The translations under genes were made by a program, and so were the position numbers. DNA of 25,715 bases from a virus. This document shows, piece after piece, positions 19,445-25,715 of the stretch. Position 1 is the first letter of the stretch. Each line of letters opens with the position of its first letter. The notes beneath the pieces were generated by a model. That model was given only the letters and a program-made list of their open reading frames with translations. It was not told the DNA's origin and did not search any database. Location: positions 1 to 25,715 of IMG/VR virus record IMGVR_UViG_3300026519_000058; one strand, written 5' to 3'.

Positions 19445-20672
19445 CTTTTCGCGCGATCCCAAAGAGGCGATTGCTTACCTCAAGGACAAAAAGCCCCAAC
19501 TGCATTTTGACTATGACGAGATCATGCACGAGGCGCACCACAAAGCCTTTACCGTCGCCAAGATCACGCGGCTTGATCTGCTTAGCGACATCCACGCATC
19601 GCTCATCCACGCGCAAAAAGAGGGTATCCCCTTAAACGAATGGAAAAAACGCCTAAAACCGACGCTCAAACAAAAAGGCTGGTGGGGCGATATCGAGGTG
19701 ACCAACCCGCGCACGGGGGAGGTGAAACAGATCTATGTCGGTTCGCGCCGGCTGCGCACGATCTTTTATACCAACGCCCGCGTCTCGTACAATGTCGGGC
19801 GCGCGCAGATGCAGTACGCGCTGCCTGAGGCGCAGTACCTGCGCTATGTGGCGATCCTCGATGGGCGCACCCGCCCGTCACACGCCAAAAACCACGGCGT
19901 CATCCGCCACCGTGACGATGCGTTTTGGGCGACGCACTACCCGCCAAACGGCTGGAACTGCCGCTGTCGCGTGCAAGCCTACAGCCTCAAGCAGATCAAA
20001 CGACAAGGCTGGGAGGGCAAACTCAACGCCCCGCTTTATGACATCGCGCACAGCGACTGGCGTTACGATGTGCGACACGATACGAAAAAAGCGCTGGAAG
20101 CCTACGCTAAAAAACGCATCGCCAAAGCGCCCAAAGAACTTGCTGCTGCCGCCGCGGCATCGATGAGCAAAACACCTTATGAAGTGCGCAAAAAGCAGCT
20201 CAACAAAATGATCGACGAAGTGATCGTCAACGAAGACCCAACCTATCCGATCAACGTCATCGAGATCGGAGTACTCACCGACGAAATCGTCAGCGCCATT
20301 AAGTCGGTGCTTGATAAAAAGGTGGAAACCTACGGGATCGTACTGGAGAAGTCCGCACTAATGCACGCATCGCCAAAACGCAAAGACGCATACAAAAACC
20401 CGAAAGGGTTAACCGTGGACAATATAAGAGAAATCGTCGATGTACTTGATAACCCGGCAGAGATATATATAGATACCGATCCAAAACACGGAGATCTCGT
20501 GTATGTTTTCCCTGACCAAACAAATACGGCGAAAAAAAACAAGATCATCATACATCCCAACAGGTCTGTTAAGAAATTTGGTAAGACGAATGCCGTCGTT
20601 ACGCTGGACAAAGGGAGCAAAAAAGAGATTGAAAAAAACATCGAGGCAGGAGTATATATACGCGTCAAGTAG
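19434..20672 (+). CDS. F: Mu F-like minor head protein fused to a toxin-like nuclease domain
   Basis: This is a 412-residue protein. Residues about 105-185 are the Mu F core: RTIFYTNARVSYNVGRAQM, ILDGRTRPSHAKNHGV and YPPNGWNCRCRV. From about residue 245 a separate domain begins, with LEKSALMHASPKRK (His311), NIREIVDVLDNPAEIY and LVYVFPDQTNTAKKNKIII. This pattern (helix, HA, helix ending NP, then beta strands) resembles the PBECR barnase/EndoU-like nuclease domains found at the C-terminus of F proteins in temperate phages (MuF polymorphic toxins). The domain may be delivered with the phage or act in the lysogen. The catalytic residues cannot be proved here. Its last codons are duplicated downstream at 21707. 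Base composition becomes more AT-rich towards the 3' end. Confidence 0.8.
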   Translation: MTFSFSRDPKEAIAYLKDKKPQLHFDYDEIMHEAHHKAFTVAKITRLDLLSDIHASLIHAQKEGIPLNEWKKRLKPTLKQKGWWGDIEVTNPRTGEVKQIYVGSRRLRTIFYTNARVSYNVGRAQMQYALPEAQYLRYVAILDGRTRPSHAKNHGVIRHRDDAFWATHYPPNGWNCRCRVQAYSLKQIKRQGWEGKLNAPLYDIAHSDWRYDVRHDTKKALEAYAKKRIAKAPKELAAAAAASMSKTPYEVRKKQLNKMIDEVIVNEDPTYPINVIEIGVLTDEIVSAIKSVLDKKVETYGIVLEKSALMHASPKRKDAYKNPKGLTVDNIREIVDVLDNPAEIYIDTDPKHGDLVYVFPDQTNTAKKNKIIIHPNRSVKKFGKTNAVVTLDKGSKKEIEKNIEAGVYIRVK

Positions 20673-20716
20673 CGGCGGGAGTCGAACCCGCAATATCCGC
20701 ACACACGCTGACAAAC
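20608..20716 (+). repeat. 109-bp direct repeat, copy 1 (end of F plus tRNA-like 3' half)
   Basis: This copy covers the last 21 codons of the F-like gene and 44 bases beyond it. It matches 21707-21815 with 3 differences in 109 bases, the differences all being in the coding part. The non-coding part carries GCGGGAGTCGAACCCGC, the reverse complement of a tRNA T-arm, but here the 5' half of the tRNA-like element is missing: the match stops at ACAAAC and continues into cargo DNA. Confidence 0.9.
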
Positions 20717-21706: not shown

Positions 21707-21772
21707 ACAAAGGGAGCAAAAAAGAGATTAAAAACAACATCGAGACAGGAGTATATATACGCGTCAAGTAGC
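21707..21772 (+). pseudogene. Orphan 3' end of an F/toxin gene
   Basis: The frame KGSKKEIKNNIETGVYIRVK-stop corresponds to the end of the F-like protein's toxin domain (KGSKKEIEKNIEAGVYIRVK) with three changes. It has no upstream homology and no start. Orphan C-terminal tips left behind the active gene are typical of polymorphic toxin loci. Confidence 0.7.
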
Positions 21773-21815
21773 GGCGGGAGTCGAACCCGCAATATCCGCA
21801 CACACGCTGACAAAC
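21707..21815 (+). repeat. 109-bp direct repeat, copy 2
   Basis: This is the downstream copy of 20608-20716 (106 of 109 bases identical). It contains a fragment of the last 21 codons of an F-like gene, ending in the same VYIRVK-stop, with no start or body: an orphan toxin tail. Beyond the repeat, the sequence continues into the complete tRNA-like element. Copy 2 is therefore probably the original junction of F to G, and copy 1 plus cassette the newcomer, or the reverse. Confidence 0.9.
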
Positions 21816-24280: not shown

Positions 24281-25141
24281 TCAGTCCAAAAAGATCATCG
24301 ACGACGCGGCTTTGATATGCCCCGCCGCCAGAGGCTCGCCCTGCATACGCGCAAAGCGTTTGGCTTTGGCGAAGAGGTTGACCGCGCGGCGCAAGTGCCT
24401 TGTGTAGCGCCCGATCGTCTCGGCAAAATCCCCAAAGAGCAGGCGCATATCCTCGTCGCTAAGTTCGCCAAACTCCCAACGCCCCTGGATCCGACTGTAC
24501 AGCTGCAACAGTTCGCCGTTTTGTCCTTTGAGGTTTTTGAGCAGCCCGTAGGTACCCACCAAGATCACCGGCACGCGGCTAAAGTCGTAGATGCGTCGTA
24601 TCACCTCCAGCCCCTTGACGGTCAGGTGCTCCGCCTCGTCGATGACCAGCACGCTGTCGCGCCGGCTAAACTCTTTGGCGATAGCAAAGACCAGCTCGTC
24701 GCTGGCGCGGATCCCGCCGATGCCGATGGCGTTGGCGATGGTGCGCAGCAGACTGTCCACGCGGATACCGGGTACCACCTCCACAAAGACCGCCTCTGGG
24801 TGCTGCGCGACAAACGCGCGTGCCACCACGCTCTTGCCGCTGCCGGGGATCCCGTAAAGCACCGCCATCTCCTTGTTGACCACTGCCTCGTCAGCCACAA
24901 ACATCGCAGAGCGGTAGTTGCTAAGATCTACGATGCTCTCCGCAGGCGTCTCTGCCGATTTGGCGGCGTAGTTGGTCATAAACTGCCCAAGGCTCTTCTC
25001 CAGCTCCGTCGTGTCGCCCTTGTATTTGCCGTGCATCCACTGCGATATCTGCGACGAGCTGATACCCAAGCTTCGCGCCACATACGCCTGCTTGAGCCCC
25101 TCGCGCTCCAAAAATCGTCCGAACTCTTTGCGTAAATTCAT
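24281..25141 (-). CDS. B: Transposition ATPase B (MuB-like)
   Basis: This is a 286-residue AAA+ ATPase that would bind target DNA, stimulate the transposase and confer target immunity. An N-terminal helix-turn-helix (residues 17-42: KQAYVARSLGISSSQISQWM) precedes the ATPase domain with Walker A GIPGSGKS (97-104), Walker B VLVIDEAE (164-171) and sensor VILVGT (192-197). The C-terminus has YTRHLRRAVNLFAKAKRFAR. ATG 25141 has AAAGGAG; an in-frame ATG 25 codons upstream lacks one and lies in the loop of a large inverted repeat. MuB itself is 312 residues. Confidence 0.93.
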   Translation of the reverse strand: MNLRKEFGRFLEREGLKQAYVARSLGISSSQISQWMHGKYKGDTTELEKSLGQFMTNYAAKSAETPAESIVDLSNYRSAMFVADEAVVNKEMAVLYGIPGSGKSVVARAFVAQHPEAVFVEVVPGIRVDSLLRTIANAIGIGGIRASDELVFAIAKEFSRRDSVLVIDEAEHLTVKGLEVIRRIYDFSRVPVILVGTYGLLKNLKGQNGELLQLYSRIQGRWEFGELSDEDMRLLFGDFAETIGRYTRHLRRAVNLFAKAKRFARMQGEPLAAGHIKAASSMIFLD

Positions 25142-25156
25142 CTGTTCTCCTTTGAT

Positions 25157-25278
25157 GGCTTGGCAAGACCCACACCGAGGGGCGGGCGGAAGTTTGTCGG
25201 GAATGGGGTATGGCATACGATCAAAAAGGAAAACATGAGATCACCGCCCGCCCCCGGGTGTGGGTCTTGCCTCAAGCC
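25157..25278 (-). repeat. Long inverted repeat / RNA hairpin ahead of gene B
   Basis: Arms 25162-25189 and 25244-25271 are complementary over 28 bases except for two positions, and the pairing extends outward with GGCTTG (25157-25162) and CAAGCC (25273-25278) around a 2-base bulge. The 54-base loop has no gene. In minus-strand RNA one of the two exceptions is a G:U pair. The stem ends 15 bases before the gene B start. No T-run follows, so it is not a standard terminator. A MITE or REP-like element is the alternative. Confidence 0.8.
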
Positions 25279-25287
25279 GAAGCTTGA
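25272..25287 (-). other. Hairpin with UUCG tetraloop
   Basis: The minus-strand RNA reads UCAAGC-UUCG-GCUUGA, a 6-bp stem with the very stable C(UUCG)G loop. It shares bases with both flanking hairpins, so it cannot form fully alongside them. Confidence 0.6.
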
Positions 25288-25321
25288 ACGAAGGTTAAAC
25301 GCCCGTTTAACCCTCGTTCAA
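25284..25321 (-). repeat. 18-bp inverted repeat over the stop of the zinc-ribbon gene
   Basis: Arms 25284-25301 and 25304-25321 are complementary with a 2-base loop and one exception, which is a G:U pair only in minus-strand RNA. The arm read first contains the TAA stop of the zinc-ribbon gene (25309-25307). The centre carries the GTTAAACG/CGTTTAAC core also seen near 17957-17996. Confidence 0.75.
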
Positions 25322-25522
25322 ACCCCCTTGATCCTCATCGTCATACTCGCCGATATCTCGCATATACTCGACATACTCCAGATTGAGCCTGTCGGCATAG
25401 ACGGCCTCTTTGGTCTTGAAGGTGTGGCCGCATATCTGGCAACGGCGAAACCGTATCGTATAGAGCCCCTTGATCGTGCCGTATACCCGCGTTTTTTCGT
25501 GTGCGCATTTAGGACATGTCAT
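25307..25522 (-). CDS. Small zinc-ribbon protein, 71 aa
   Basis: This begins MTCPKCAHEKTRVYGTIKGL and continues RFRRCQICGHTFKTKE: two CxxC pairs (CPKC and CQIC) 25 residues apart form a zinc ribbon similar to that of NrdR or Ogr/Delta-type phage activators. The acidic C-terminus (EYMRDIGEYDDEDQ) could contact other proteins. It sits between the probable transposase gene (stop only 2 bases upstream of its ATG) and gene B, an unusual position since A and B are adjacent in Mu. A nucleic-acid-binding regulator is likely; the exact role is unknown. Confidence 0.75.
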   Translation of the reverse strand: MTCPKCAHEKTRVYGTIKGLYTIRFRRCQICGHTFKTKEAVYADRLNLEYVEYMRDIGEYDDEDQGGLNEG

Positions 25523-25524
25523 CG

Positions 25525-25715
25525 TTAGTACCCCGCCGCTTTCATCACTTGTGCCAGCATCTCCATCCCCTTTTCCTTCTTCGGGTTTGGTTTGGGCTCG
25601 ATCTTCGTCACCTTGGGCGAAGCAAGCGCGCTAAGCTGCTTGGCGTGTGTGATCACCAGATCGCCGGTGATCGCCGCCGCGCTCTTACCCTCCTTGACGA
25701 TCGCTTTGATGCGCT
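25525..25715 (-). CDS. A: C-terminal end of a probable transposase A (partial)
   Basis: Only the last 63 codons are visible: IKAIVKEGKSAAAITGDLVI, THAKQLSALASPKVTKIEP, a Lys/Pro linker, then MEMLAQVMKAAGY-stop. A helical region followed by a basic linker and terminal helix would suit the C-terminal domain of MuA, which contacts MuB, and the position upstream of B supports it. No catalytic residues are in the window, so the call is positional. Confidence 0.45.
   Translation of the reverse strand, partial: RIKAIVKEGKSAAAITGDLVITHAKQLSALASPKVTKIEPKPNPKKEKGMEMLAQVMKAAGY

Follow-up and report, generated by a model that had tools for sequence, protein, structure and literature searches.

The window, by which we mean the whole stretch of 25,715 nucleotides that was analysed, is part of a contig of a Mu-like phage of Campylobacterota hosts, and when read on the minus strand it carries the end of the transposase gene A, a zinc-ribbon gene (ZR), a gap occupied by hairpins and the transposition ATPase gene B, in that order, with the following features:

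25525-25713, minus strand: C-terminal end of transposase A, which is cut off by the contig end
25307-25522, minus strand: ZR (71 aa), the cistron upstream of the hairpins and B
25279-25326, minus strand: hairpin 1, a 22-bp RNA stem with 5' arm 25326-25305, 3' arm 25300-25279 and a 4-nt loop
25272-25287, minus strand: UUCG-capped 6-bp stem UCAAGC-UUCG-GCUUGA, an alternative to the outer pairs of hairpins 1 and 2
25157-25278, minus strand: hairpin 2, with core arms 25271-25244 and 25189-25162, an extension pairing 25278-25274 with 25161-25157, and a 54-nt loop
25225-25235, minus strand: loop segment UGUUUUCCUUU, with 11-nt complementarity to the B ribosome site
25143-25153, minus strand: Shine-Dalgarno (SD) region of B, AAAGGAGAACA, the candidate pseudoknot partner of 25225-25235
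24281-25141, minus strand: gene B (286 aa), a transposition AAA+ ATPase with an N-terminal HTH, whose leader is the hairpin region

The assignment of B follows from matches to Pfam AAA_22 (7e-20) and to PHROG 296, DNA transposition protein (E 1.7e-67), while ZR matched Zn_ribbon_NrdR of Pfam weakly and PHROG 10675, a family of unknown function. Relatives were found through terminase and B searches, and their B proteins are 71% (the sister phages L004 and L169), 74% (L089, a prophage in a Sulfurovum MAG) and 61% (L172) identical to that of the window. The A end in the window matches the end of the L089 A open reading frame and shares its MKAAGY terminus with L004, and rve and/or Mu-transpos_C domains are present in the large open reading frames upstream of B in L004, L089 and L172. 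At the place equivalent to ZR, L004 carries a copy that is 62% identical. An in-frame ATG of B further upstream, at 25216, was rejected as the start codon, as it lacks an SD and the B genes of the relatives begin where the 25141 ATG lies.

Repeat coordinates and RNA folding confirmed the inverted repeats at the positions given in the initial annotation. The first, with arms at 25284-25301 and 25304-25321 (18 nt, 94%), grows to the 22 bp of hairpin 1 through G:U pairs when read as minus-strand RNA, and the ZR stop codon (TAA, 25309-25307) does fall within it. The other, with arms at 25162-25189 and 25244-25271 (28 nt, 93%), is lengthened past a 2-nt bulge by five pairs (25157-25161 with 25274-25278), resulting in a stem of approximately 32 bp in total that adjoins the B ribosome site, its core ending 8 nt from the B SD, in line with the earlier description of a stem of 28 bp or more just before that site. 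The UUCG-capped stem is likewise present at 25287-25272; its reported overlap with both neighbours holds for their outer pairs, as it competes with 4 nt of the 18-bp stem and with the hairpin 2 extension, while the cores of both large stems are unaffected. This small stem is absent from the minimum-energy fold, and forcing it costs approximately 10 kcal/mol (-93.6 with and -103.4 without). The minus-strand RNA of the gap has a minimum free energy of -104.3 kcal/mol as compared to an average of -67.9 for shuffled sequences (z -8.5; 0 of 200 shuffles as low), and this z value is the lowest among 92 gaps from 27 non-redundant related phages. In that sample, A-B gaps fold more strongly than the remaining codirectional gaps at these loci (median z -4.3 versus -1.9; Mann-Whitney p 0.0006).

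Counterparts of hairpin 1 and of the long-range hairpin 2 precede B in L004, L089 and L172, the tandem following A directly in L089 and L172 and following A-ZR in L004; in L172 a small open reading frame separates hairpin 2 from B. Hairpin 1 is homologous in L004 and L089 and analogous in L172. When the hairpin 2 arms of the four phages were aligned in a fixed register, set by hand on a shared GGGGGC/GCCCC core that had been picked because it pairs, 93% of cells were paired, a level reached by 0 of 500 shuffles, and changes on both sides were found in 15 of the 25 pairs; registers slid as controls gave 32-53% paired. For hairpin 1, in three phages, all cells (100%) were paired and 4 of 12 pairs had changed on both sides. 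Compensatory changes exceeded the controls in both hairpins, as is characteristic of a conserved structured RNA, and the covariation across related prophages that the initial annotation had proposed as a check was thereby obtained. The comparison shows a predicted two-hairpin fold in the B leader to be conserved as RNA. Hairpin 2 is not essential in all relatives, since it is missing in L171, L250 and L251, and no further homologous hairpin 2 before B was found in 175 Sulfurovaceae genomes, 399 Campylobacterales genomes or IMG/VR. A scan for the hairpin 2 pattern on both strands of 5.6 Mb of fetched loci returned only the A-B gaps of these phages, apart from an early-gene leader of L102. The latter (L102:2040-2160) belongs to a Helicobacter Mu-like prophage, in which a long hairpin with the GGGGGC core forms the leader of the first early gene, and its loop contains ACUCCU, complementary to the SD. 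The A-B hairpins of L190 and L192 are similar to each other except for an insertion of approximately 24 nt within the loop region.

The strand on which the pairing acts could be read from its imperfections. On the B-coding strand the non-Watson-Crick cells of hairpin 2 comprise nine G:U as against one A:C, and hairpin 1, folded in isolation, gains about 10-19 kcal/mol of stability on the sense strand in each of the four phages (sense/antisense -30.8/-20.2, -27.5/-17.7, -22.7/-10.2 and -23.1/-3.7 kcal/mol). This G:U excess and strand asymmetry indicate pairing in the sense-strand RNA rather than a DNA palindrome; across all A-B gaps the sense bias of folding is borderline (p about 0.05). The initial annotation had stated that nearly all mismatches are G:U, which in the window alone amounts to two of three and becomes convincing once the relatives are added, and its suggestion of selection on RNA pairing in the B-coding strand is supported by covariation together with the strand asymmetry. 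The comparison of the four phages shows that the element forms in B-coding-strand RNA and that selection on pairing has kept it.

The element is most likely, if somewhat short of probable, a cis-acting intercistronic leader of B on an early A-(ZR)-B messenger that acts through RNase III-type processing or translation control, a reading that draws on analogy with other phages. Host RNase III would cut the long double-stranded stem of the leader, and the cut would separate the A/ZR message from that of B and leave the latter with a defined, protected 5' end; in addition or instead, the leader would govern ribosome access to the B start that adjoins the stem. Located a few bases ahead of a ribosome site, a stem of 32 bp makes a natural RNase III substrate, and its cutting would uncouple B from A. 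Both hairpin 2 (approximately 32 bp) and hairpin 1 (22 bp) reach the roughly two helical turns or more of an RNase III site, and a long stem alone would be no proof of cutting. The lambda N leader, in which an RNase III-processed hairpin precedes N on the early message, resembles the present element in that an early phage gene has a long RNA hairpin shortly before its ribosome site; it differs in its nut site and N-like protein, which are not known here, and in that two tandem hairpins are present here for which cutting is only predicted. The early T7 sites (R1.1 and others) similarly place a double-stranded stem between the cistrons of early genes, but they are shorter and have internal loops. 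RNAs of lambda, T7 and T3 are RNase III targets (PMC5371410), the Campylobacter jejuni RNase III cleaves the T7 R1.1 site (PMC3839596), and RNase III is encoded in both host genomes tested (G001 and G199). We infer that the element sets B expression separately from that of A, at the post-transcriptional level.

This would mean that transposable phages of the Campylobacterota, by way of a conserved structured B leader, adjust their target-choice ATPase post-transcriptionally. To our knowledge the A:B balance of Mu-like phages has not been described as controlled at the RNA level, and a limited literature search returned no such case; Rfam returned no matches above the gathering score in the window, L169, L089 or L172. 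The element is real and, as an RNA control element, apparently undescribed, and it represents a candidate new RNA family that is testable by compensatory mutation.

Among the alternatives the most support was found for a translational operator in which the loop of hairpin 2 would pair with the B SD as a pseudoknot and sequester it, with B or another ligand relieving or enforcing the block. In the window UGUUUUCCUUU and the SD AAAGGAGAACA can form 11 bp (p 0.006-0.01, as compared to shuffled loops). L187 carries before its B gene a hairpin of unrelated sequence with 10 matching bp (p 0.001), and a precedent exists in T4 gene 32, where gp32 acts on a pseudoknot of its own leader (PMC535899, PMC3014915). 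Against this, the match is not significant in L089, L004, L172, L087 or L102, the loops were selected after the match had been seen, and the window SD is mostly unpaired in plain folding. Loop-SD pairing was rejected as a general feature, being significant in its own right in only two of seven hairpins, and such a pseudoknot appears possible for individual phages, although on balance improbable as the explanation of the element. As compared to the T4/RB69 gene 32 leader, the present one is likewise structured, precedes the gene of a DNA-handling phage protein and keeps its architecture while its sequence diverges; the gene 32 pseudoknot may predate an open reading frame that entered the gap (PMC535899), and ZR may similarly have entered the A-B gap after the element. 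The gene 32 leader differs in that its pseudoknot is small, lies farther from the SD and is accompanied by UUAAA repeats, and in that it is autoregulated, for which the present element is only a candidate. The hairpin before B in L187 is also found in L184; it is unrelated in sequence to hairpin 2, and its 32-nt loop contains UCUCCUUAUU, which matches the B SD AAUAAGGAGA as a perfect complement. It is unlikely that the element represents a new operator family controlling translation in phages, in which a long stem with an anti-SD loop would form a pseudoknot at the B start. If it did, tuning of the B:A ratio would fall to a ligand, whether B protein, RNase III or some other, and would bear on whether the phage integrates or transposes replicatively.

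A purely mechanical role, in which strong hairpins would block reinitiation from A/ZR into B with neither regulation nor a nuclease involved, would fit the many different hairpins that fill the A-B gap of other Campylobacterota phages; two specific hairpins are, however, conserved pair by pair, which points beyond a stem that simply blocks, and we consider such an insulator unlikely. Control of transcription, by an attenuator or a put-like RNA altering RNA polymerase between A and B, is slightly less likely still. The intercistronic position and the two adjacent hairpins speak for such a mechanism, but neither hairpin is followed by a U-tract, a terminator scan of the sense (minus) strand revealed no intrinsic terminator (GC stem with U-tract), and loops and sequences vary widely among the relatives.

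The initial annotation had proposed that ribosomes finishing ZR, or the ZR protein itself, refold the RNA and thereby set B expression. Its assignment of the pairing to the leader of B is borne out by covariation and strand asymmetry. For the switch itself, the ZR stop codon within hairpin 1 and the small alternative stem, which like a similar stem in L004 overlaps hairpin 1 on its 3' arm, are suggestive; nevertheless, the L089 and L172 gaps keep both hairpins without ZR, with A ending about 20 nt or more before hairpin 1, the stop codon lies within hairpin 1 only in the window among the four phages, and the middle stem is energetically disfavoured, as noted above. A ribosome placed on the ZR stop codon in the window would open hairpin 1. 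When the stop codon was occupied by a ribosome in long-context folding of the four phages, the B SD/start kept essentially the same degree of pairing (means without and with ribosome 0.34 and 0.24, 0.61 and 0.61, 0.64 and 0.63, and 0.69 and 0.68); a change in SD exposure in the window under a shorter-context model was not robust. With ZR missing from the gap in two of four phages and no effect on the B start in the energy model, the ribosome-at-stop switch was rejected, and a switch by ZR translation or ZR protein is very unlikely. Mu com-mom, in which a small zinc-binding protein acts with a hairpin at a translation start, is similar in combining a Mu-like phage, such a protein and a hairpin near a translation start; it differs in its target gene and in that the present element occurs without ZR (L089 and L172). 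The location of ZR varies: in a comparison that took in window 25307-25522, L004, L007, L090 and L172, it lies between A and B in the window and L004 and 2-3 kb downstream of B elsewhere. As judged from gene order, the element is independent of ZR, because ZR is missing from the gap in L089 and L172 and lies downstream of B in other relatives.

An element acting at the DNA level, be it a MITE/REP copy, a palindromic operator or a phased binding array, is scarcely credible in spite of the inverted repeats and an apparent 11-nt periodicity of A-B gaps, as dispersed copies are lacking, control gaps show equal periodicity and the G:U pairs are confined to one strand. The initial annotation had named dispersed copies as what would refute the RNA reading; none were found in 175 Sulfurovaceae genomes beyond short chance matches or in IMG/VR or INPHARED, and the L089 element is a single copy in its genome. 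The RNA reading was not refuted, and a MITE/REP was rejected on the absence of copies from these host-family genomes and both virus collections. The 11-nt autocorrelation peak of the A-B gap (z 6.7), with TTTAAA-like repeats, is about equal in control gaps, and a helically phased array was rejected as the same peak of about 11 nt occurs in other gaps of the same phages. Autocorrelation at 10-12 nt with TTTAAA-like repeats is general to intergenic gaps of Campylobacterota Mu-like phages. On the plus strand, window 25225-25243 and the L089 loop read as an SD plus ATG in antisense (AAAGGANAACATG), and an antisense gene with this SD-like start in the loop was rejected, as no reading frame is conserved. 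Elsewhere in the window, a 109-nt direct repeat occurs at 20608-20716 and 21707-21815, the copies being 97% identical and situated between or beside short open reading frames.
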